Below are positions 51,261 to 62,955 of a DNA stretch of 62,955 nt, piece after piece. A program made the translations under genes and the position numbers. The DNA lies in contig NZ_JAJFAV010000025.1 of NCBI RefSeq assembly GCF_020711235.1, positions 1 through 62,955 on the forward strand, in the 5' to 3' direction. Within the stretch, counting starts at the first letter, position 1; each line of letters opens with the position of its first letter. The notes beneath the pieces are model-generated. The model was not told where the DNA came from, did no database searches, and saw nothing but the letters and a program-made list of their open reading frames with translations. Source of the stretch: Hymenobacter sp. 15J16-1T3B (GTDB lineage: Bacteria; Bacteroidota; Bacteroidia; Cytophagales; Hymenobacteraceae).

Positions 51261-52454
51261 CTAGAGGCTGCCGCCCACGGGCAGGCCGCTGGGCACGCGC
51301 GCGGGCACGGTGCGGTCGAAGGAGCCGGCGCTAAGCGAGCCGAGAAAGGCCACGATGGCCTGCTGGTTGGTGACGCGGGTGGGCAGCAGCGGGTCGAGGC
51401 GGGCGTTGGGCACGTTGGGGTTCAGCGAGGCGCGCCCGCCGCGCGGCCCGGCGTCGTAGAAGCGCACCACCTCGGCCAGGGTGCTCATCGTGCCGTTGTG
51501 CATGTAGGGCGCGGTGGCGGCCACTTGGCGCAGGCTGGGCGTGCGGAAGGCGTAGGTGCCGTTCTGCCCGGCATCAGTCGCGCCCAGCTTGGCGTTGTCG
51601 GCCACGCCGAGCACGTGGGTCTGGTAATCGGAGAGCATGGGGCCGGTGTGGCACTTCGGGCAGCCGCTCTGCACGAAGGCCGTCAGGCCCTGCACCTGCT
51701 CGTCGGTAAGGGCAGCTTGCTCGCCGCGCAGGTAACGGTCATAGGGCGCGTCGGCGGTGGTCAGGCTGCGCTCGAAGCAGGCCAGGGCCCGGCCCAGGTT
51801 GGCGGCCGACACGGGCGCGACGCCCCCAAACACGGCCGCGAAGCGCTGCTGGTACTCCGGCACGCGGCGCAGCCGGGCCACCACCGAGTCGACGGCCGCC
51901 GCTTCCGAGTACTGACGGCCGCGCATCTCGGCCAAGGTGGCGATGGGCAGCAGGGTCTGCGCTTCCAACGATTGCGCCCGGCTGTCCCAGAACATGCTGG
52001 CCGTCGTCGGGTCGCAATGCCCGTCGGGGCCGATGCCATTGAAGGCCACGTTGAGCACGGTGGGGGCGTTGCGCTGGGCGAAGGGCAGGTCGTTGGGCTG
52101 ACGGAAGCGGCGCTGGCTGCCCTGGCCCTGCCCGTTCGGGCCAATGGAGAGGTCCAGCCCGTCGGCGTAGGCGCTGGCGGGGTGGTGGCAGCTAGCGCAA
52201 CTCACATCGCGCGGGCCGGAGAGGATGGGGTCCCAAAACAGCAGCCGCCCCAGCTCCACTTTGGCTGCCGACGAGGGGTTGTCGGCCGGCGCGGGAGCCG
52301 CTGTAGGCAGGGCGCTCAGGCCGTTGCTGGTAGCTTGACTCACGGTGTTGGGCGCGGGGCTGTCGGGCTGGCAGGCCACGACGGCGCCGAAGAGGCTGGT
52401 GGCAAGCAGACCAGCCAGGTGACGAACGGAAAAGCAAGTAAACCTCGGCGTCAT
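51261..52454 (-). CDS. Di-heme cytochrome c peroxidase (MauG/CcpA family) lipoprotein
   Basis: A 397-residue protein started at 52454. The signal peptide has a lipobox (FGAVVACQ). There are two heme c attachment motifs, CASCHHP (N-terminal) and CPKCHTG (C-terminal), as in di-heme peroxidases. Conserved segments PFAQRNAPTVLN and AFRTPSLRQVAATAPYMHNG match the family. It probably reduces H2O2 in the periplasm, or oxidises a protein or small substrate in MauG fashion. The partner is not clear. Confidence 0.92.
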   Translation of the reverse strand: MTPRFTCFSVRHLAGLLATSLFGAVVACQPDSPAPNTVSQATSNGLSALPTAAPAPADNPSSAAKVELGRLLFWDPILSGPRDVSCASCHHPASAYADGLDLSIGPNGQGQGSQRRFRQPNDLPFAQRNAPTVLNVAFNGIGPDGHCDPTTASMFWDSRAQSLEAQTLLPIATLAEMRGRQYSEAAAVDSVVARLRRVPEYQQRFAAVFGGVAPVSAANLGRALACFERSLTTADAPYDRYLRGEQAALTDEQVQGLTAFVQSGCPKCHTGPMLSDYQTHVLGVADNAKLGATDAGQNGTYAFRTPSLRQVAATAPYMHNGTMSTLAEVVRFYDAGPRGGRASLNPNVPNARLDPLLPTRVTNQQAIVAFLGSLSAGSFDRTVPARVPSGLPVGGSL

Positions 52455-52666
52455 AGCAGGCAGCACGGGCGGCGGGGCCGCGGAGACAAAGCACGCCCCG
52501 TCGGCGCGGCGGGGTCACGGCTCCAAAACAATAGCAAGGCGGGCGGGCCGCTAAACGCAATAGACGACCCGCCCGCGAATGCCGACGAATGGACCCGGTT
52601 CTGCGCTAACTAGCTCGGAGGGGAGGGCAAAAACGTTGCCTGCCAAGCGCCGCGCACCCACAAAAA

Positions 52667-53512: not shown

Positions 53513-54879
53513 GTGGCGGCAGCGGTCAGCGTATGTTGGGTGTAGAACGTAAGGGTCTGAATCTGGGTGCGAGCCTCGGCGCCGTAGTAGAGGCGGGCCT
53601 GCCAGTGGCCGCCGGGCAGCGGCACCAGCAGCCCCAGGCCCAGGCGGCGGCGCAGCGGGTCGAGCAGGTTGTACACGTAGGCGCCGTCCTGGTCGGCCAG
53701 CACGGGCACGCGGCCCCAGCCGGCGTAGCCCTCCGCCCAAAGGCGCGAGGCCAGGCGCCCGCCCGCGCCCACCAGCACGTGCGGGTAGGTGCGCCCGGCC
53801 GAATGCACGAAGGCCGCGCGCGTGAAGCCGTAGAGGCGCAAGGTGCCCAAGGGCAGCACCGTCAGCTGCAGCTCGGTCTGGGTGCGGCTGGTGTCGGTGA
53901 GGCGGCCGGCGTAGAGGCCGGCCTGCAGCTGCCAGGTGGGCCGCACGTAGCGCAGGGCCGCGTAGCCGAGGTGGCCGGGGTAGCGCGTCTCGTGGAAGCG
54001 GCTGCCCGTGAAGTGGTAGCCCAGGCGGCCCTGCAGCTGCAGCGGCAGCGGCACGGTGAGCAGGGCTTGGTAGTCGAACTGCCGCACCGACACCCAACTG
54101 GGCCGCCCCGGCTCGGGGCCCGGTAAGGGGCGTGGGTCGGGTGGGGGCAAGGCCACGCGCACCTGCTGGGCGTAGTGCGACACGGCCTGCCAGAGCGCCC
54201 AGCCCCCGCCCAGCTGGCTGCCCACGCCCAGGCGGGCGAAACTGGCGGCGCTGCGGTCGGCCGAGCTGGGCCACTGCCCGCCCAGCTCCACTTCGACGCG
54301 GGCCACGGCGCGCGGGCTCAGGTGCAGCGCCCGCCGCAGCGAGTCGGACACGGGCCGCGCCAGCTGGGCGGCGGTTTCGCGCTGGTTCAGGGCGAGCCAG
54401 CCGTAGGCCAGGCCCAGGCCGGTGAGCGGGTCGGCGGCGTTGGCCCGCCGGGCGCGTTCGTAGTGCCCGATGGCCTCGGCGGACCGGCCGCGCAGCGCCG
54501 CGGCGTAGCCCAGGCGCTGGCGCAGTCCCGGGTAGTCGAGGCCCAGCGCCAGGGCGCGGCGGCCCGCCGAATCCAGCGCCGCCCAGCGGCCCCGGGCCAG
54601 CAGCGCCGCCGTCAGGCTGTCGGCGTAGGCGTAGTCCGATAGGTCCTGGGGGCCGGTGCGCTGGGGCCGGCGCACCGAATCGGCGGCCGGCGCCGGCGCA
54701 GCGGGCTCTACCACCAGGCTGTCGGCCCCGGGGGCTTGAAGGGTATCGGGCGCGAGCGGCTCCACCACCAGGCTATCGGGCCGGGTGGGCGGCGTGGTTT
54801 GGGCCGCGGCGGGGCGCAGGCCGGGCCCGAGCAGCAAGCCGAGCCAGAGCAGGGGCAGGATCAGGCGACGGAGCGGCAT
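53500..54879 (-). CDS. Probable outer-membrane beta-barrel protein with N-terminal TPR-like segment, function unknown
   Basis: A 459-residue protein with a signal peptide (LILPLLWLGLLLGPGLRPAAAQ), a Pro/Asp/Val-rich stretch, a helical TPR-like part (about 80-175), and a C-terminal half of alternating hydrophobic/aromatic beta strands (for example FDYQALLTVPLPLQLQGRLG and WQARLYYGAEARTQI) ending in TW, as outer-membrane proteins often do. No named family. It overlaps the UT-M23 gene by 19 bp at its start and the TPR gene by 13 bp at its end. Confidence 0.72.
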   Translation of the reverse strand: MPLRRLILPLLWLGLLLGPGLRPAAAQTTPPTRPDSLVVEPLAPDTLQAPGADSLVVEPAAPAPAADSVRRPQRTGPQDLSDYAYADSLTAALLARGRWAALDSAGRRALALGLDYPGLRQRLGYAAALRGRSAEAIGHYERARRANAADPLTGLGLAYGWLALNQRETAAQLARPVSDSLRRALHLSPRAVARVEVELGGQWPSSADRSAASFARLGVGSQLGGGWALWQAVSHYAQQVRVALPPPDPRPLPGPEPGRPSWVSVRQFDYQALLTVPLPLQLQGRLGYHFTGSRFHETRYPGHLGYAALRYVRPTWQLQAGLYAGRLTDTSRTQTELQLTVLPLGTLRLYGFTRAAFVHSAGRTYPHVLVGAGGRLASRLWAEGYAGWGRVPVLADQDGAYVYNLLDPLRRRLGLGLLVPLPGGHWQARLYYGAEARTQIQTLTFYTQHTLTAAATWTW

Positions 54880-57053
54880 ACGAAGCGAAGGGGCGAAGAC
54901 TGATCGGGAAGCAGCACGCTGAAGCCGGCCAGGGTGCCCGCGGCCAGCTCGAGGTCAGCCTGTTGCAGCGGGCGCACGCGGCCGAAGTAGCGCAGTTCGG
55001 CGCGGCTGCTGAGCTGCAGGCGGCGCGGGTGGTAGGCGTCGTCGGCGCCGTGGTAGCGCAGGGCAAAAGTCGGCCGGATGAAGCGCACAAACGGCGCCAC
55101 CGCGTCCTGGGCCCACTTCAGCGCGGGGTTGCGCACCAGGGTCAGCGGGAAAGCGTCGAGCAGCTCGGCCTGGGGCTGGTAGCTGAGCAGCACGCGGTAG
55201 GCGGCGCGGTAAAACAGGTAGAGCCAGGCCGACTCCGGGCCGTAGTAGGCCGTGAAGTTGAAGGCCGCGGCAGTGCGCTCAAAGTAAGCCACGGCGCCCG
55301 AGTGGTGGCAGTACAGGTAGGTTTTGTTGTAGGCGTCGGTGAAAACTTCCCAGCGCTGGGCCGGCGCGGCGGCGTCGTTGGCATCGAGCACGTCGAGGCG
55401 GAAGCCGGGCGGCAGGTCGAAAGCTTGGTGGAGCAGCGGGCTGAGCGGTAGATTTTGCACGGTTTCGCCCTCGGCGGGCACCTGAAAGCTGCGCACCGCC
55501 GCGCCGCTGAGGTAGTAGGCCAGCGGGTAGGCCAGGGTACGCGAGCCGATGTAGGGCGTGGCCTGCACCTGGAAGTGCACGTGCGGCTCGGCCGAACGAC
55601 CCGAGTTGCCGCAGGTGCCGAGCAGGTCGCCGCGGCGCACCCGGTCGCCGGGCTGCAGACTGGTGCTATGGGGCCGCAGGTGCGAGACCTTGCTGAACAG
55701 GCCCGGCTGGTGCTCCAGCACCACGGTATTGCCCCAGTTCTGGCGTGTGTTTACCTGCCCCACGGGGTTGTCGTCGATGTGCGAGACGACCACCACCACC
55801 ACGCCGTCGGCCGGGGCCAGCACCGGCTTGTTGTAGCAGTAGTAGTCGGCCAGGTTGGCGCCGCTGCCGCGGTAGGTGCGCCCGTCTGCGTCGCGGATCA
55901 TGAAGTCCAGGGCCTGGGCCCATTCGCCCTGGTGCGTGGGCAGGCCGTCGTAGCCCTGCGTCACCTGCCACTCGCCCAGGAAGGGGAGGCTCAGGTGCAC
56001 GTACAGCTGACTTTGCAGCCGCTCCCGGTCGTTGGTGTAGGCGTAAAGGTTGCGCTCGGGCGAGTAGCGCTGAATGGGCGTGAGCGGCAGCCAGTGGCCG
56101 TGCTGGCGCAGCAGCAGCACGTAGAGAAACAGCTGCGACACCAGGCAAAACGGCAGCGAAAACGCCGGCAGCCCCAGCCGGGCCAGCAGCGCCGTCAGCC
56201 CCGCCACCAGCACCGCCGTGATGGGCACGCTCAGCAGCGCCCACAGGTAGGAAGCCGCCGAGGGAATGACGAACACCCCGCCCACCGCCACGGCCGCCAT
56301 AATGTAGTTGGCGCCGAGGTTGTAGTGGTTGATGCCGTCCTGGTACACGCCCGTGGCCATGCCGAAGGCGTAAGCCCCCAAAAACGCCACCACCGACAAG
56401 GAAAACGCAATGCGGGAATGCCACAGCAATCCGGCAGCCATGAGCAAGCCCACCAGCGGGCTGTCCTGAAAAAACACCGAACTCAGGGCCCGCAGGTAGG
56501 TGTCGGGCATGAGCGGCAGGTGCCAGCCGTTGAGCCAGTGAATGACGTGCAGCAGCGGCGCGCCGCCCACGGCGTACATTTCGTTGAGCCAGTAGATGCC
56601 CCGCTCGTTCAGGGCCAAGGCGTGAAACTGCTCGGCCGCGGGCGTGAGCAGCCAGATGACGCCCAAAAACGGCAAGGACAGCGGCGGGAGGCCTTTGTGC
56701 CCCAGCCAGCCGCCCAGGGCCACCGTCAGCAGCAGGGCAAACAGGGCCCCCACCAGCAACACCAGTCCGAAGGCCCAGCCCGGCTCGTAGAACGTACCCA
56801 GGGCCAGGCCCACCAGCAGGGCGTTGAAGCCGTAGCCGCCGGTGGCCAGCACTTCCCGATTAAAACCCATCAGCCAGCCCGCGCCCACCGCCAGCCCCGT
56901 TGCCGCCAGCCCGGCCGCGCCTGCGCCGGGATTGGCAAACGAGAGCAGCAGCAGCAGAGCCGCAAAGCCCCGGTGCTGGGAGAAGAAAACCAGGCTGTAG
57001 CTGCGCAACACGGCCAAAGCGAGGGTGCGCAGGGTCGTATTGGCTGGGAACAT
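54861..57053 (-). CDS. Urea-transporter-like membrane domain fused to an M23 metallopeptidase domain
   Basis: A 730-residue protein. Residues about 10-320 form ten or so transmembrane helices with the two-fold repeat of the urea transporter family: LPPLSLPF in the first half and LPAFSLPF in the second are its LPxxTxPF signatures with Ser for Thr; GFNALLVGLALGTFY is another family segment. Residues about 365-515 form a LytM/M23 peptidase with a complete set of candidate ligands: HQGEWAQALDF, HLRPHS and EPHVHFQ. The C-terminal 215 residues are beta-rich and of unknown fold. The M23 part presumably faces the periplasm and may cut peptidoglycan or a peptide. First gene of a tightly overlapping three-gene operon. 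Confidence 0.85.
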   Translation of the reverse strand: MFPANTTLRTLALAVLRSYSLVFFSQHRGFAALLLLLSFANPGAGAAGLAATGLAVGAGWLMGFNREVLATGGYGFNALLVGLALGTFYEPGWAFGLVLLVGALFALLLTVALGGWLGHKGLPPLSLPFLGVIWLLTPAAEQFHALALNERGIYWLNEMYAVGGAPLLHVIHWLNGWHLPLMPDTYLRALSSVFFQDSPLVGLLMAAGLLWHSRIAFSLSVVAFLGAYAFGMATGVYQDGINHYNLGANYIMAAVAVGGVFVIPSAASYLWALLSVPITAVLVAGLTALLARLGLPAFSLPFCLVSQLFLYVLLLRQHGHWLPLTPIQRYSPERNLYAYTNDRERLQSQLYVHLSLPFLGEWQVTQGYDGLPTHQGEWAQALDFMIRDADGRTYRGSGANLADYYCYNKPVLAPADGVVVVVVSHIDDNPVGQVNTRQNWGNTVVLEHQPGLFSKVSHLRPHSTSLQPGDRVRRGDLLGTCGNSGRSAEPHVHFQVQATPYIGSRTLAYPLAYYLSGAAVRSFQVPAEGETVQNLPLSPLLHQAFDLPPGFRLDVLDANDAAAPAQRWEVFTDAYNKTYLYCHHSGAVAYFERTAAAFNFTAYYGPESAWLYLFYRAAYRVLLSYQPQAELLDAFPLTLVRNPALKWAQDAVAPFVRFIRPTFALRYHGADDAYHPRRLQLSSRAELRYFGRVRPLQQADLELAAGTLAGFSVLLPDQSSPLRFVCRSVA

Positions 57054-57201: not shown

Positions 57202-58608
57202 TCAGGGCCTCGTCGTGGCCTGTGAAGGACGCCCGCCCGCAGTCGGCGAGGTGCCCGGGGCGGAAGGGCTCAGGTGAGTCGGCATTTCCTCCAGCTGCTG
57301 CAGGTAGTCCAGCGTTTCGGCCTGCCGAATGCGGTGGGGGCGGCCCTGCTCGTCGAGCAGCACCACGGCCGGGCGCAGGGTGATAAACTGCATCCACTGC
57401 GTCATGTTGTAGGCGCCCACTTTGTGCACCACCACTTGGTCACCGCGGCTGAGCAGGGGCAGGTTCACGCTTTCGCGCAGCACGTCGATGTTCATGCACA
57501 GCGGGCCGTAGAGCACCGTGTCCTCGGTGTGCTGCGAGAAGTCCCCGGCCGGGCTGATTTTGTGGTCGTACCAGAAGGAGGTGAAGAGCACGTTCACCCC
57601 GAAGTCGAGGATGGTGGCGCGGCGGCCGTCGGCGAGGCGCTTGGTGGCCAGCACCGTGCCCAGCAGGTAGCCCGCGTCGTCGACGAGCAGGCGGCCGGCT
57701 TCGAGCACGAGCAGCGGCAGCTCGTCTTGGCGGAAGCCGGCGCGCTGCAGGGTGTCGGCAATGACCTCGGCAAACTCGTCGATGCCCGGTGCGGTGTCGG
57801 TGCCGGGCAGGTAGGCGCCCTTCAGGGTATTGGTCGACGGGAAGCCGCCGCCCAGGTCGAGGTACTGAATCGGGGTGTTCAGCTGGGTGCGGCAGCTCCA
57901 GGCCAAGTCGGCCAACTTCTGCGCGGCCACGCCGTAGGGCTTGGTGCTCAGTAGGTAGGTGCCCAGGTGGCAGTGCAGCCCCACCAGTTCCAGCCGCCCC
58001 GAGCCCACGATGCGGCCAATGGCGTTCCAGGCCTGCCCGTTTTCCAGGTTGAAGCCGAACCGGTCCCACTGCGGGTACACGCCCGCGTCGAGGTTGACGC
58101 GCACGGCCACCCGCGGCCGGCGCGGCAGCGTGGCGGCCACGTCCAGCAGCTCGTACAGCTCGTCGAAGTGGTCGAGGTGAATCACCGAGTCCAGCGCGCA
58201 GGCCCGCTCCAGCTCGGCCCGCGACTTGCTCGGCCCGTTGAAGATGATCTGCGGCCCCGGCACCCCGTTGAGCAGGGCCTTTTCGTACTCGAAGCCCGAC
58301 ACCACCTCGGCCCAGGCGCCTTCCTGGTGAAACACTCGGCACACGGCGTTGAGGTAGTTGGTTTTGTACGACCACGCAAACTGCACCCGCGGGTAGCGCG
58401 TGCGAAAGGCCCGCACGGCCTGCTGATAATTGCGCCGCAGTTGCCGCTCGCTGAGCACGAACAGCGGGGAGCCGAACTCACCGAGCAAGTCCTTCACCGG
58501 CGCCCCGTCGATGTCGGGTACCGGCTGGGTTTCGGTGCGGGCGCCAAACTTGTTGAGCGGCCCGGCGCTGAGCTTTTTGATGAGCGGCCGTTCGTAGCGT
58601 TGTTTCAT
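57202..58608 (-). CDS. Fold type III PLP enzyme, decarboxylase/racemase-like
   Basis: A 468-residue protein of the alanine racemase / diaminopimelate-ornithine decarboxylase fold, started at the ATG at 58608. The PLP Lys is in FAWSYKTNYLNAVC, the phosphate-binding GGGF in LDLGGGFPSTN, and later EAGRLLVDDAGYLLGT and GPLCMNIDVL with the decarboxylase-type Cys/Asp pair. The end of the core, GAYNMTQWMQF, is close to biosynthetic decarboxylases. The C-terminal tail is low-complexity. The substrate is not known. It follows the ATP-grasp gene by 107 bp of repeat-containing sequence. Confidence 0.85.
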   Translation of the reverse strand: MKQRYERPLIKKLSAGPLNKFGARTETQPVPDIDGAPVKDLLGEFGSPLFVLSERQLRRNYQQAVRAFRTRYPRVQFAWSYKTNYLNAVCRVFHQEGAWAEVVSGFEYEKALLNGVPGPQIIFNGPSKSRAELERACALDSVIHLDHFDELYELLDVAATLPRRPRVAVRVNLDAGVYPQWDRFGFNLENGQAWNAIGRIVGSGRLELVGLHCHLGTYLLSTKPYGVAAQKLADLAWSCRTQLNTPIQYLDLGGGFPSTNTLKGAYLPGTDTAPGIDEFAEVIADTLQRAGFRQDELPLLVLEAGRLLVDDAGYLLGTVLATKRLADGRRATILDFGVNVLFTSFWYDHKISPAGDFSQHTEDTVLYGPLCMNIDVLRESVNLPLLSRGDQVVVHKVGAYNMTQWMQFITLRPAVVLLDEQGRPHRIRQAETLDYLQQLEEMPTHLSPSAPGTSPTAGGRPSQATTRP

Positions 58609-58620
58609 GGGTGGGAATAT

Positions 58621-58719
58621 GTAGCGCGAACTTTCAGTTTGCGTAGCGCGGAACGATGGGGAAGCGGCGGGGTTCGACCAGAAAGCAGCGGGAATACGCG
58701 AACCAAAAGTTCGCGCTAC
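58621..58719. repeat. Inverted repeat inserted between the ATP-grasp and decarboxylase genes
   Basis: Arms GTAGCGCGAACTTTCAGTTT at 58621 and its inverted copy ending at 58719 (25 bp each, a few mismatches). The stop codon of the ATP-grasp gene lies inside the right arm. Confidence 0.8.
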
Positions 58720-59777
58720 AGCTCGCCGAAAGCAGAAATCTGGTGAAACTCGTGGTTGTCGGTAATCAGGTCCCAGGCGTAGCGGATAAACATGCGGCCC
58801 ACGGCGTACTCCGTCCACGGATAAACCGGCAAGCCCAGGGCCAAGCGCACCAGCGCGGCGGGTTGGTTTTGGCCCGCCGCCACCGTCAGGTAAATCCAGG
58901 CCGGAAAGCGCGGGTTGATTTCCAGGACGAACAGCCGCCCGTCGGCCGCACGCATCAGTTCCAGCTCGCAGCCGCCGCGCCAACCGGTGCGCTCCACGAA
59001 GCGGCGCGCCAGCTGCAGCAGCGTCTCGTCTTCCAGGGTGATGCCGGCCCAGGCCTTGCCCTTGTCGGTGATGTAGAGCTTGCGCATGGGCACCGCGCTC
59101 AGGGTGCGGCCGGTGCCGTCGCCCAGGGCCGCCACGTTGATTTCGTGGCCCTGCACAAATTCTTGGGCAATAACCGGCAGCCCCCACTTGGCGCTGATCT
59201 GGTGAAAGGCCTTGCGCGCTTGCTCCAGGGTGTGGGCCACCGTCGCGTCGTAAAACTTGCCCTTGACCACCAGCGGGTAGCCCAGCTGCTCGGCCGCCTG
59301 GGCCAGCTCGTCGGCGCGGTGCAGGAGGTGCTGCTGGGGCACCAGCAGGCCGTGCGCTTCCCCGAAGGCGCGCAGGTTGAGCTTGTCGCGGGCTTCGAGC
59401 TGCTCCAGCGTGGGCAGAAAGGTGCGGATGCCCAGCGCCGCCAGCCGCGGGGCCAGGCGCACGAAATTGGGCAGCTCCGCGTCGAAGTTCGGGATGATAA
59501 CGTCCAGGCCCTCCCGCTCGTGAATCTCGCCGAGGCGCTCCAGCAGCACCTGCGTGCCGGCCGAAGGGTAGGGTAGCTGGTAGGTCTTGTCGACCACGTC
59601 GTGCATGTAAATGCCCGGCTCCAGCGCCTCGTAGCTCAGCCCGATGATGCGCACCGTAAAGTCCGGGCTTTCGCGCAGGGCGCGGATGACCGCCACGCCC
59701 GGGCCGGGGCTGTCGATGGCGTTCAGGCCCGTCACGCCGATGACGTAGCGCGGGCGGTGGTCGGCAGCGGGGCTCAT
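58716..59777 (-). CDS. ATP-grasp ligase-like protein
   Basis: A 353-residue protein with the ATP-grasp fold of carbamoyl-phosphate-synthase or D-Ala-D-Ala-ligase type: pre-domain YVIGVTGLNAIDSPG, ATP-binding PLVVKGKFYDATV, and the metal-binding block ELELMRAADGRLFVLEINPRFP. It should form an amide or peptide bond using ATP. It starts directly after the PqqD-like gene's stop with no gap (TAA then ATG), so translation is coupled. Substrates are unknown. Confidence 0.9.
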   Translation of the reverse strand: MSPAADHRPRYVIGVTGLNAIDSPGPGVAVIRALRESPDFTVRIIGLSYEALEPGIYMHDVVDKTYQLPYPSAGTQVLLERLGEIHEREGLDVIIPNFDAELPNFVRLAPRLAALGIRTFLPTLEQLEARDKLNLRAFGEAHGLLVPQQHLLHRADELAQAAEQLGYPLVVKGKFYDATVAHTLEQARKAFHQISAKWGLPVIAQEFVQGHEINVAALGDGTGRTLSAVPMRKLYITDKGKAWAGITLEDETLLQLARRFVERTGWRGGCELELMRAADGRLFVLEINPRFPAWIYLTVAAGQNQPAALVRLALGLPVYPWTEYAVGRMFIRYAWDLITDNHEFHQISAFGEL

Positions 59778-60017
59778 TTAGTCGAGCAGTTGATGGTCGC
59801 GCAGCTGGGCCACGAGGTCGTCCCAGTCCTTTTCCAGCTGGTTGGGTTCCACGTCGTAGCGGTTGAGCAGCAGGGTTTTGATATCGGCCGGGCTGCGGTC
59901 CTGCTTGAGCAGCTGCAGGATTTCGGTGGCCAGGGCATTGGCCGTAAACGAGTCGCCGGTAGCCGGGTTGAAAATGAACCCGGTTTCGCTGGTGGCAATA
60001 TTCTTCTTGAGTTTCAT
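59778..60017 (-). CDS. PqqD-like RRE-type peptide-binding protein
   Basis: A 79-residue protein started at 60017, matching the PqqD/RRE family: MKLKKNIATSETGFIFNP, DSFTANALATEILQLL and the winged-helix-like end EKDWDDLVAQLRDHQLL. PqqD-like domains bind precursor peptides and bring them to modifying enzymes. Here it is encoded right before an ATP-grasp protein. First gene of the cassette; a direct-repeat operator and TATGTTT -7 element lie upstream. Confidence 0.85.
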   Translation of the reverse strand: MKLKKNIATSETGFIFNPATGDSFTANALATEILQLLKQDRSPADIKTLLLNRYDVEPNQLEKDWDDLVAQLRDHQLLD

Positions 60018-60350
60018 AGCAAGGGCGGCCGGAGCCGCCAATCGGAAAAAGACGTCGCCGCGCGGGCGTCATCCAGACCCTAAACATACGACAGGCCGCC
60101 CACCGCGGCGGTTCGCCAATCGACCAGCCCGGCAAATGTGCCGACCATTTTGCCTTGCCGAACGGGCGTGGGCGGGCACGAGCCGCGGCCCGCGCCCACC
60201 TCGCTCAGGTAGCTCCCAATGACCGCGGCCCAGTCGTTACCCGCAAAACCCAAGCCGCGTGACACTCACTCACCGCCACTGTGCGGAGGCGCAAACGCCG
60301 GGACAAAGGCGGCCATCGGGATGCGTAAGGGTGGGTCGGCTAGCGGGTAG
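60018..60350. other. Intergenic region between the PqqD-like gene and the glycosyltransferase gene
   Basis: It holds the promoter and direct-repeat site of the PqqD-like cassette (60081-60147). An open minus-strand frame of 61 codons (60080-60265) spans this promoter but shows no precursor-peptide or coding features. Nothing else recognised. Confidence 0.5.
60081..60147 (-). promoter_or_regulatory. Direct-repeat operator and -7 element of the PqqD-like cassette
   Basis: On the minus strand: TGGTC (60147-60143), 16 bp, TGGTC (60126-60122), 33 bp, then TATGTTTA (60088-60081), 63 bp before the ATG. The half-sites are 21 bp apart, two helical turns. The centre CACATT is also shared with the glycosyltransferase site. 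No -33 TTTG is visible, so an activator is likely needed. Confidence 0.65.
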
Positions 60351-61511
60351 TTAGGCGGCGAGATAGTGCAAAATATCGGTGAGCAGCCGCCCTTGCTGGG
60401 CCGCCGAAAAGTAGCGGCTCAGCTGCGGGTACGGGGCCGACGCCCGGCGCCCGGCTTGCAGCACGGCGCGCACCTGCACGGCGCCAAACGCCACGTCGCG
60501 GGCCGGGAAAAGGTGCTGCAGGCCGGGAAAGTCGGGAGCGGCGGCGCCCTCGGCCGCTACCACCGGGCAGCCCGCGGCCAGAGCCGCCAGCAGCAGCGGG
60601 TCGTAGTCGTCGGTGGGGGCGGGGGAGAGCAGCGCGTCGAGGGCGGGGAAGAGCAGGCCGTCGGCGGCCGGCGCATGAAACGGGCGCAGGTATACCACCT
60701 GCGAAAGGCCCAGCGCCCGGGCGTGCTGGCGCAGCTGCTGCCAGCGCGCGGCGTCGGGCGGGGTGTGCGGGTGCCCCACGATAACCAGTTCGGCGGGCAG
60801 TTGCAGTTCGGTGCGCAGGCGGTAGAGCACTTCCAAGGCAAAGTGCCCGGTGTAGCCGTCGTCGGCCACGCCTAGCAGCGGGGCCGCGGTGGGCAGGTCG
60901 AGCAGGCGGCGGGCCTGAGCAGGCGCGGCGGCCGTCACGCCGGGGGCGGCGCCCGGCAGCCCCGGCGGCACCACCCACAGCTGCCGGGCGTCGAGGCCGG
61001 TGCGCGTTTCCACGGCGCGGGCCGTGCCGGGCAGCGGGGCCAGCCAAGCGTCGAGCGGGCGGCGGCTCAGGCGGGCCCACCACGCGGCCGGCGCCGCCGC
61101 GGCCAAGGGTTCGTGCTGGTGAAACACCAGGCGCAAGCGGCCGCGCAGCAGCAGCTTGGCGGCGCTGGCCACCGGCAAGTCTAGGGCCCGGACGACCAGC
61201 AACGTGCCGATGCGCTGCCGGCGCAGCCAGCGGGCCAGCAGCCAGGCCGCGCGCGGTACACGGCCCAGGCCAAGCGGGCCCGACAACGGCGGCACCGGCA
61301 GCCGAGCGGCGGCGTGGGGGCCCAGGGGTGAAGCGGCTGCCGCCACCAGCAGCACGGATTGCGCCGCGGTGCGCAGCGTGGCGCACAGCCGCAGCAGTTG
61401 CTCTTCGGCCGGGCCCACCGCGGGGGCCAGGCTCAGCACGGCCAAGGGCGCAGCCAGGGTGGCCGGCGCGCCGGGGTGCACAAGAACGGACGGAGAAACA
61501 AAGGCAGACAT
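60351..61511 (-). CDS. Glycosyltransferase (GT4/GT1-like)
   Basis: A 386-residue protein started at 61511. It has the two Rossmann-like halves of GT-B enzymes; the C-terminal half carries LVIVGHPHTPPDA, VVYLRPFHAPAADGLLFPALDALLSPAPTDDYDPLLLAALAAGCPVVAAEG in segments, which include the acceptor/donor-binding region. The usual GT4 EX7E motif is modified (one acidic position retained as Asp). Very Ala/Pro-rich. It probably transfers a sugar to a cell-surface or secondary product. Its promoter shares the direct-repeat operator of the PqqD cassette. Confidence 0.82.
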   Translation of the reverse strand: MSAFVSPSVLVHPGAPATLAAPLAVLSLAPAVGPAEEQLLRLCATLRTAAQSVLLVAAAASPLGPHAAARLPVPPLSGPLGLGRVPRAAWLLARWLRRQRIGTLLVVRALDLPVASAAKLLLRGRLRLVFHQHEPLAAAAPAAWWARLSRRPLDAWLAPLPGTARAVETRTGLDARQLWVVPPGLPGAAPGVTAAAPAQARRLLDLPTAAPLLGVADDGYTGHFALEVLYRLRTELQLPAELVIVGHPHTPPDAARWQQLRQHARALGLSQVVYLRPFHAPAADGLLFPALDALLSPAPTDDYDPLLLAALAAGCPVVAAEGAAAPDFPGLQHLFPARDVAFGAVQVRAVLQAGRRASAPYPQLSRYFSAAQQGRLLTDILHYLAA

Positions 61512-61541
61512 AGCCGGGGCGCGGTCGTCAGGACCACGGCT

Positions 61542-61606
61542 CAAACATAGCCGGGCCCCGGCCGCGGCTTTTGCGCATTGGACCAGCCGCCCGAATGTAT
61601 CGACCA
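61542..61606 (-). promoter_or_regulatory. Direct-repeat operator and -7 element of the glycosyltransferase gene
   Basis: On the minus strand: TGGTC (61606-61602), 16 bp, TGGTC (61585-61581), 31 bp, then TATGTTTG (61549-61542), a perfect TAnnTTTG -7 box, 30 bp before the ATG. The 26-bp motif has 20 matches to the PqqD site. No -33 box at the expected place. Confidence 0.68.
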
Positions 61607-61849
61607 ACGCGGCGCGGCGTCGGCGGCCCGGCCGTTCGGGCGCCGGCCGAGCCGGTGGCGCCAACCAGCCAGAAAAACCCGCCGTTCGTCTAGGTTCAGG
61701 CGCCATTGGGCGAATGGGCAAGCGCGGCGGCTGTTAGTTGCGTTGTTTTACCGCAGGTTTCTGCTCCGCCACTCCCGCGGCCCGCTTCTGCTAGCTCGCT
61801 GAGCCCGGGGCAGTTTCACAAGGAAAACTTTATTGTGTTGGGGAAAAGG

Positions 61850-61875
61850 CCGCCTTGGCTCAGGGCGGTTTTTTT
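61850..61875 (+). terminator. Intrinsic terminator-like hairpin upstream of the lytS-like gene
   Basis: CCGCC (61850-61854), 9-nt loop, GGCGG (61864-61868), then seven T residues. No protein gene precedes it on the plus strand, so it may end a leader or small RNA. Confidence 0.6.
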
Positions 61876-62128
61876 ATTGCCCTCGTTTTTGGGTATTCCC
61901 GCCTTGTCAGCCGCTTCGGCACTCAGGATGGCCGCGCCTCGGCCGGCCAAAACCCGGCGCTGGTCGGCAAACTTGGGGCGCTGGTGGAGCCGGACGGGCC
62001 GAATGCCCGCCCGTCCGTAGTTTTGACCGTAGAGGATAGCAAGCCGCCAACCGGCAGCTGGTGCGCGCTGCCGGGCGGCCGGCACCCCGCCTTGGCCGGT
62101 ACTGCCCCGCCTCCGCCGACTCCCCGCA

Positions 62129-62955
62129 ATGCGCCTTAATTCCTCCCTGCTCCGCTACGCCTCCACCGTGCTGCTGCACGCCCTGATCTGGGGCCTGATC
62201 GGCTTGCTGCTGGCCTCGCCGCCGCCCGGGCAGCCCAGCCCACTGCCCACCGCCTTTTGGCTGCTGCAGGGCGCGGTGCTGCTGGCGCTGATGGGCGTCT
62301 TCTACGCCAACGCCCTCTGGGCCGTGCCGCGCCTGCTTTACCGCCGCCGGGTGTGGCTGTACCTGCCGCTGCTGGCCCTGGCCGTGCTGGGCGTGCTGCT
62401 GCTGCACCAGCGCCTGGAAGTGGCCCTGAACGTGCCCGAGCTGTTGGCCCAGGCCCGCGAAAACGCCCTGAACGTGAGTGCCTGGTGCGGCCCGCGCCCG
62501 CACGTGCAGCTCGGGCCGCAAGACGAGCCCGACCTGCTCAACCCGGACATGGTGCTCATCACCCTGCTCACGCTGGCCATCAGCACCGGCACCACGGTGG
62601 TGCAGCGCGCCCAGCACGAGGCCCAGGTGCGGCGCGAGCTGGAGCAGGAAAAGCTGGCCACCGAGCTGAGCTTGCTCAAGGCCCAGATCAACCCGCACTT
62701 CTTCTTTAATACGCTCAACAACATCTACGCCCTCACGCTCATCGACGGGGAGCAGGCACGCGCCGCCCTGCACCGCCTCTCGCGCATGATGCGCTACGTG
62801 CTCTACGAGACGCCCGCCGGCACCACCTTGCTCAGCCACGAGCTGACGTTTGCCCAGGACTACATCGAGCTGATGCACCTGCGCCTGACCGACAAGGTGC
62901 GCGTGACCTTCGACGCGCCCGCTCAGGTGCAGGAAGTGCAGATTGCGCCCATGCT
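62129..62955 (+). CDS. LytS/YehU-type sensor histidine kinase (partial, runs off the window)
   Basis: At least 275 residues from the ATG at 62129 to the window end. Four transmembrane helices (about 10-30, 42-62, 76-93, 140-158) are followed by the LytS-family histidine kinase domain: AQINPHFFFNTLNNIYAL with the phosphorylated His, then LSRMMRYVLYE and DYIELMHLRL. The HATPase domain lies beyond the edge. In Bacteroidetes such kinases are normally followed by a LytTR-type response regulator gene, expected just outside this window. Confidence 0.9.
   Translation, partial: MRLNSSLLRYASTVLLHALIWGLIGLLLASPPPGQPSPLPTAFWLLQGAVLLALMGVFYANALWAVPRLLYRRRVWLYLPLLALAVLGVLLLHQRLEVALNVPELLAQARENALNVSAWCGPRPHVQLGPQDEPDLLNPDMVLITLLTLAISTGTTVVQRAQHEAQVRRELEQEKLATELSLLKAQINPHFFFNTLNNIYALTLIDGEQARAALHRLSRMMRYVLYETPAGTTLLSHELTFAQDYIELMHLRLTDKVRVTFDAPAQVQEVQIAPM

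Follow-up and report, generated by a model that had tools for sequence, protein, structure and literature searches.

The stretch of DNA analysed here (the window, 62 955 nucleotides) is the whole of contig NZ_JAJFAV010000025.1 of Hymenobacter sp. 15J16-1T3B (C17 in our numbering). Towards its end lie two minus-strand transcription units, a cassette headed by a PqqD-like gene and a glycosyltransferase (GT) gene, followed by a plus-strand gene for a LytS-type sensor histidine kinase, inside which the contig ends (Table 1). After the PqqD-like gene the cassette encodes an ATP-grasp ligase, a pyridoxal phosphate (PLP)-dependent decarboxylase and a urea transporter fused to an M23 peptidase. The subject of this report is a direct repeat found in the promoters of these units and its probable reader, a LytTR response regulator encoded next to the kinase.

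An initial annotation of the window had described one layout common to the two minus-strand promoters, and this layout, TGGTC-N16-TGGTC-N31/33-TATGTTTR, is present exactly at both the PqqD and the GT gene. Comparison of the two 26 bp sites bears out the further claim that they match at 20 positions, including an ACATT. The promoter consensus combines TAnnTTTG at -7 with TTTG at -33; inspection of the -33 zones of the two promoters (AACCGCCGCG and GCAAAAGCCG) shows no TTTG, as had also been reported. The start codons are at 60017 (PqqD) and 61511 (GT), which places both -7 boxes at an ordinary promoter distance.

Table 1. Promoter elements and genes of the locus, in window coordinates.
Feature	Position	Strand	Remarks
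PqqD cassette operator (LytTR-type, putative)	60122..60147	-	TGGTC-N16-TGGTC, 21 bp period, TGGTCGGCACATTTGCCGGGCTGGTC
-7 box of PqqD cassette promoter	60081..60088	-	TATGTTTA, 33 bp past PqqD operator; without -33 box
GT operator (LytTR-type, putative)	61581..61606	-	TGGTC-N16-TGGTC, TGGTCGATACATTCGGGCGGCTGGTC
-7 box of glycosyltransferase promoter	61542..61549	-	TATGTTTG, 31 bp past GT operator
Putative autoregulatory operator of kinase-regulator operon	61961..61986	+	TGGTC-N16-TGGTG; third composite match, missed by the initial annotation
-7 box of kinase promoter	62018..62025	+	TAGTTTTG, 31 bp past kinase operator
LytS-type sensor histidine kinase gene	62129..62955	+	PF06580; cut by contig end
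PqqD-like gene, 79 residues, heads cassette	59778..60017	-	PF05402, E 7.1e-13
ATP-grasp ligase gene	58716..59777	-	PF15632, PF02655
PLP-dependent decarboxylase gene (Orn/DAP/Arg group)	57205..58608	-	PF02784, PF00278; TIGR01048 below cut-off
Urea transporter fused to M23 peptidase	54861..57053	-	PF03253, PF01551
Glycosyltransferase gene, 386 residues	60351..61511	-	PF13439, E 1.7e-9
Probable further operator	61686..61711	+	TCGTCTAGGTTCAGGCGCCATTGGGC, TTGTTTTA box 31 bp on; back to back with GT site, 105 bp
Tentative operator before CCP_MauG gene (51261-52466)	52563..52588	-	score 20.5; 14.9 with matrix free of window-genus sites

The kinase gene, placed about 520 bp away in the initial annotation, is a genuine open reading frame (ORF) matching PF06580 (E 6.3e-24, 84.5 bits against a cut-off of 25.2) and starts 523 bp beyond the GT site. 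The last 155 nucleotides of the window overlap exactly with the beginning of contig C3 and, when read on into C3, the kinase totals 370 residues. The LytTR regulator that had been predicted to lie past position 62955 is indeed found there, directly after the kinase: the kinase stop (441 in C3) is overlapped by the start (438) of a 254-residue protein composed of a receiver and a LytTR domain (PF00072 and PF04397; L090:438-1202, C3:438-1202). The kinase domain, the receiver-LytTR partner and the adjacency of the two genes identify a LytS/LytTR two-component system. The two genes are contiguous, and oriented divergently from the cassette, within one contig in each of H. edaphi (L010), H. gummosus (L011) and a third close relative, of the same genus (L228); their products are 91 and 94%, 90 and 91%, and 91 and 95% identical to the kinase and regulator of the window genome, respectively.

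The promoter of the kinase-regulator operon itself contains the same kind of element (61961-62025), an arrangement that would be expected of an autoregulated LytTR system. A pair of direct half-sites with a period of 21-22 bp, the geometry of a LytTR operator, is thus seen within the system's own promoter as well as at the two promoters reported initially.

The bare repeat TGGTC-N16-TGGTC was rejected as evidence. It has 41 matches genome-wide, with 108 for the reversed pattern in this GC-rich genome, and therefore means little alone; dinucleotide shuffles of the window give a value of 0.04 for it, which overstates its rarity. The motif of the initial annotation is accordingly unspecific as it stood but becomes specific once the -7 box is required. 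A composite pattern, consisting of the repeat and TANNTTTR 29-35 bp on (with S permitted as the final base of the second half), has four matches in 6.33 Mb, three of them at the present locus, and the reversed control yields none. The remaining match (C1:193542-193606) overlaps a 331-residue ORF on the opposite strand (L227). The three window sites also rank first (43.7, 42.2 and 39.1; next 22.9) with a matrix built from 53 sites outside the genus of the window, which gives no score of 12 or more in the reversed window; the places of these 53 sites were originally located with a seeded matrix, and site L203, from the same genus, was left out. A search with the half-site TGGTCGRYACATT, allowing one mismatch, was rejected as well: it returned 15 places, two of them in the window, and none of the eight inspected among the other 13 shows a -7 box some 30-34 bp away. 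One half-site place, C7:71447, adjoins a LytTR gene, with its -7 box only at 111 bp. The abundance of the bare repeat might suggest that the sites resemble each other by chance in GC-rich sequence, or are TGGTC words derived from codons; set against the four composite matches with none reversed, against sites and spacing that are kept while their flanks diverge and against a geometry that recurs with other letters in some distant lineages, such an origin is extremely improbable.

Versions of the GT, PqqD and kinase sites can be recognised in each of the four genomes, that of the window and those of the three close relatives, and their distances to the -7 box are nearly fixed: 31 bp at the GT gene and 33 bp at PqqD in all four genomes, and 31, 32, 31 and 31 bp at the kinase (window genome, L010, L011 and L228, respectively). 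The comparison with relatives that had been suggested as a check on the half-sites was thus borne out for recognisable half-sites and their spacing, but not for the exact TGGTC. The first half of the PqqD site reads TTGTC in H. edaphi and TCGTC in H. gummosus and L228, the second half reads TAGTC in L228, and the kinase sites of H. edaphi and L228 open with CGGTC. The flanks of the sites diverge in an alignment of the window with H. edaphi and H. gummosus; the PqqD protein of L228 is identical to that of the window, yet its PqqD site differs. A regulator at least 63% identical is encoded in four of the eight genomes of the narrow genus.

Across the Hymenobacteraceae, the regulator was detected at E <= 1e-82 in 103 of the 200 genomes searched. 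From these matches 60 listed regulator loci were chosen (mostly the best-scoring, with some second copies) and taken with about 8.5 kb of upstream sequence; 20 lie beside a PqqD cassette and 40 have no cassette within this reach. With a matrix derived solely from the two sites of the initial annotation, 47 of the 60 kinase promoters score above the 99th percentile of shuffles (17/20 linked and 30/40 unlinked), compared with 11 of 289 control segments elsewhere in the same loci. An iterated matrix seeded with nine sites finds a site in 54 of the 60, at a score that shuffles reach in 0.3% of cases, but this matrix was trained on the kinase promoters that it then scores, making the two-site matrix the fairer test. 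The gap between the half-sites is similarly constrained: at a score of at least 13, matches in the 20 linked loci number 16 at gap 16 and three or fewer at gaps 13-15 and 17-19. When the period spectrum of 34 kinase upstream regions is computed without regard to sequence, its maximum falls at 21 bp (7.24 versus 6.04 in shuffles), with at least eight of nine positions matching at this period in 14 loci and in at most six at any other.

The wider distribution of the cassette was followed through its ATP-grasp gene, using the best 80 loci among the matches listed, many of which are short. Besides ATP-grasp (80), the PqqD gene and the PLP enzyme are present beside it in 78 of these Bacteroidota loci and a gene for an outer-membrane protein (OMP) in 47, and a LytTR regulator falls within the fetched flank in 34. 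The urea transporter-M23 fusion of the window has a match in the cassette of 68 of the best 80 loci. The period spectrum again has its peak at 21 (12/27) when taken upstream of PqqD in those 27 loci that contain a regulator and lie outside Hymenobacter. A strict test was defined as a repeat matching at seven of nine positions with its second copy starting 36-38 bp before TAnnTTTR. At period 21 this is satisfied by 13 of 71 PqqD promoters of distant Bacteroidota (41 of which have any such box), 23 other periods giving a mean of 0.26 and a maximum of one, and by 11 of 60 Hymenobacteraceae kinase promoters (two or fewer at other periods). The same test gives 0/71 for the PLP enzyme, 0/61 for the urea transporter-M23 fusion and 0/40 for the OMP promoters, 2/73 for ATP-grasp (mean 0.74 and up to four at other periods) and 3/21 for distant kinases. 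Some of the 13 positives are close kin (L058, L059 and L066); L036 and L041 have other letters. Half-sites are TTTCACTGA-like in the Bacteroidales and TTCGTATCT-like, with CAnnTTTG-like boxes, in some Flavobacteriia; nearly all of these loci come from metagenome-assembled genomes.

These observations raise the possibility, which we regard as evenly balanced, that LytTR control of the PqqD/ATP-grasp/PLP-decarboxylase/urea transporter-M23 cassette extends throughout the Bacteroidota by way of a frozen geometry, a 21 bp repeat 36-38 bp before TAnnTTTR that does not require a -33 box, within which the half-site letters have turned over from TGGTCGRTT in Hymenobacter to TTTCACTGA in the Bacteroidales and TTCGTATCT in the Flavobacteriia. 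If this were true, conservation would act on the operator frame rather than on its letters, which would evolve together with the regulator, and the cassette would represent a phylum-wide, signal-induced and undescribed pathway. A 30 bp period upstream of PqqD in loci that lack a regulator (17/44) was set aside, as by eye it appears to be due to an upstream coding gene. In many Chitinophagaceae-type loci (L026, L027, L047, L067 and others that have no regulator in reach) an acetyltransferase-like coding sequence, identified by eye, ends directly upstream of PqqD.

For the window and its relatives, the repeat is very probably a paired promoter tag read by the adjacent sensor-regulator pair, and we consider it highly likely, from sequence comparison, that this pair forms a self-activating LytS/LytTR switch. 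The membrane kinase would pass phosphate to the LytTR regulator encoded right after it, and a dimer of the phosphorylated regulator would bind half-sites of approximately CTGGTCGRY and CTGGTCGATT lying 21 bp, or two helical turns, apart. The bound regulator would then recruit RNA polymerase, in a class-II-like manner, to TAnnTTTR promoters without a -33 box, and the kinase-regulator pair would activate itself by positive feedback; dimer binding to the half-sites, recruitment and feedback are proposed because they belong to established LytTR biology. In response to a presumed signal, the switch would induce the PqqD/ATP-grasp/PLP-decarboxylase/urea transporter-M23 cassette, joined in this clade by the GT gene. 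The computed results are compatible with either sign of control, and the operator could instead serve for repression until a signal releases the regulator. We judge this improbable, since the sites lie upstream of the would-be -33 position at promoters that have no -33 box in the window, and their position parallels that of LytTR-activated promoters in PMC6193735.

In kind, the system is a known one, a LytS/LytTR pair with presumed operators; the operator itself, its tie to a PqqD cassette and the recurrence of its geometry at a distance appear to be new as far as the searched literature shows. No paper combining LytTR with Hymenobacter or with TAnnTTTG was found in that literature, most subscription journals lying outside its scope; LytTR and PqqD occur together there only in two papers on other bacteria, and no description of the cassette was found. 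AgrA of Staphylococcus aureus resembles the present regulator in having a kinase partner and in the autoregulation proposed here but differs in a repeat centred near -60, in a -35 box with a long spacer and in its half-site and signal system. Its P2 and P3 sites (PMC4227749) are among the closest known systems.

A further likeness is offered by the HdrRM, BrsRM and LRS systems, for which PMC6193735 describes autoregulation and 9 bp repeats mostly 12 bp apart, with poorly conserved letters and highly conserved spacing. These have the same 21 bp half-site period upstream of their own and their target promoters and, as here, the letters of the repeat vary while its length, spacing and place are conserved. 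They differ in that the regulator is partnered by a membrane inhibitor, in contrast to the histidine kinase and receiver-LytTR protein of the present locus, whose promoter is of the TAnnTTTR type without a -33 box and whose half-site letters are unlike theirs. The gene order of an LRS as set out in that source, a soluble LytTR regulator and then a membrane inhibitor, is not that of the window genome, where the kinase is upstream and the regulator includes a receiver. The LRS-like operons of Bacteroides thetaiotaomicron and B. ovatus (PMC6193735, Table 3) belong to the same phylum, and their own promoters place direct repeats ahead of a TATCTTTG -7 box; the repeats measure 11 bp, have a period of 22 bp and precede a TGTA/TGTG box by 11 bp. 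The start of the second repeat lies about 45 bp from the TATCTTTG box in these operons and 36-38 bp from the -7 box here, so that the present operators are closer. The regulator of the Bacteroides operons is membrane-bound, and the source describes no kinase.

A number of observations weigh against the self-activating switch. LytTR half-sites follow the consensus [TA][AC][CA]GTTN[AG][TG], which CTGGTCGAT fits by eye at only about four of eight informative positions. The kinase -7 box is the poorer TAGCTTGC in H. edaphi and L228, and in another genome of the genus (G004, site L203) a 63% identical regulator lies away from the cassette with a weak site (17.8) in its kinase promoter. Six of the 60 kinase promoters have no convincing site with the iterated matrix, two of the 16 linked matches at gap 16 (L181 and L194) are elsewhere than the picked sites, and the gap control is weaker in the 40 unlinked loci, where 21 matches at gap 16 compare with 15 at gap 13; moreover, these loci are related to one another, so that the counts are not independent events. 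Among more distant genomes, 20 kinase upstream regions show no 21 bp peak in the period spectrum, 24 of the 27 regulators next to cassettes outside Hymenobacter have a better match in a paralogue on contig C38 than in the regulator described here, and a tree separates the regulator groups without order. Finally, the genome has 25 LytTR matches, any of which might represent a paralogue able to bind.

The last points bear on whether the sites, while being LytTR operators, are mainly read by a paralogous regulator, or by several with cross-talk. Related pairs unlinked to the cassette do carry a nearly identical operator, and about 1.5 kb before the LytTR gene on contig C39 there is an intact second half, TTGGTCGATT with TAGGTTTG, that has no first half (C39:65517-65581) and has a counterpart in genome G002 (G002:C6:66504), near that genome's own such regulator. 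However, a full operator stands in the neighbouring pair's own promoter in the window genome and in its three close relatives, and this locus accounts for three of the genome's four composite matches, which makes a paralogue unlikely as the main reader. With the neighbouring pair as reader, the exact operator coordinates and half-sites would provide a testable on-switch for a recurrent cassette of which no description was found, and expression or deletion of the regulator should help to reveal both the product of the cassette and the signal. The data also suggest a positional rule for LytTR-type operators, in which the second half-site precedes the -7 box of TAnnTTTR promoters by about 37 bp, in some lineages with differing letters; regulons of this phylum might be found by such geometry where a sequence motif misses them.

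The initial annotation had further proposed that the GT gene and the cassette are jointly controlled. The best support for this comes from two family loci, L146 and L151, in which a GT-like gene (36-41% identical) directly precedes PqqD in the same orientation and lies behind an operator. This operator fronts the GT-like gene itself in L151 and a 141-residue ORF preceding it in L146. Joint control need not imply a joint pathway, as the GT gene may have been captured by the regulon in a few lineages, a reading compatible with the self-activating switch and to which we give somewhat less than an even chance. A GT-like gene was detected by tblastn in two of the best 80 cassette loci, and is present in two of the 20 linked loci and in L228; among the loci examined, the linkage is confined to the close relatives of the window genome and to L146 and L151, the latter two being the loci whose gene order speaks for a shared pathway.

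Further promoters may belong to the regulon. Of the 20 linked loci (in other genomes), 14 have CCP_MauG and CHU_C genes between the kinase and PqqD, and in 11 of these 14 an opposed operator (score of at least 15), outside the training sites, precedes the divergent operon; the reversed control yields 11 such matches in 576 kb. The CCP gene of the window is about 10 kb away, and the score of the tentative operator before it is not significant alone (ten matches of at least 15 in 576 kb reversed). In eight of the 40 unlinked loci (L150, L178, L179, L183, L185, L189, L191 and L193) the kinase-regulator pair is divergent from a large gene that resembles an outer-membrane receptor, judged by eye from its translation, and an opposed operator precedes that gene. 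The opposed operators in divergent promoters of the 60 Hymenobacteraceae loci are 65, 75, 97, 106-108 or 153 bp apart (86 bp in L171 if the stronger site is taken), and these distances mostly step by about one helical turn, which is suggestive; helical phasing is not claimed, as the 153 bp pair is out of step and simulation gives p of about 0.10.

Two other genes have similar elements upstream. A site comprising an operator-like sequence and a TAGCTTCG box (G000:C37:322827-322891, minus strand) lies just upstream of a YHYH-domain gene (L225:552-1784, minus strand, G000:C37; PF14240, E 9.3e-49), the product of which has a sorting-tail match below the cut-off, and this gene may belong to the regulon as a remote member. 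In genomes G002 and G003, strong operators with the box CAACTTTG (L229:1376-1401, score 37.7, and L230:1881-1906, score 38.6) precede a lipoprotein gene resembling, by eye, a relative of intradiol dioxygenases; the same patterns found no counterpart in the window genome.

The probable further operator at 61686, beside the GT promoter, is similar in H. edaphi and L228, and H. gummosus has a counterpart of different sequence at the same place; in all four genomes this operator-like promoter stands back to back with the GT operator at 105 bp. About 100 bp past it is a hairpin with a T run, also kept in H. edaphi and H. gummosus. A search for structured RNA at the locus gave one sub-threshold Rfam match (mir-6794, E 0.22), which was discounted. 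Between the promoter and the hairpin, H. gummosus has a short ORF of about 120 codons with, by eye, the look of a sorting tail. In the window the promoter and terminator alone remain (61686-61880, plus strand), and a short RNA may therefore be made from this pair.

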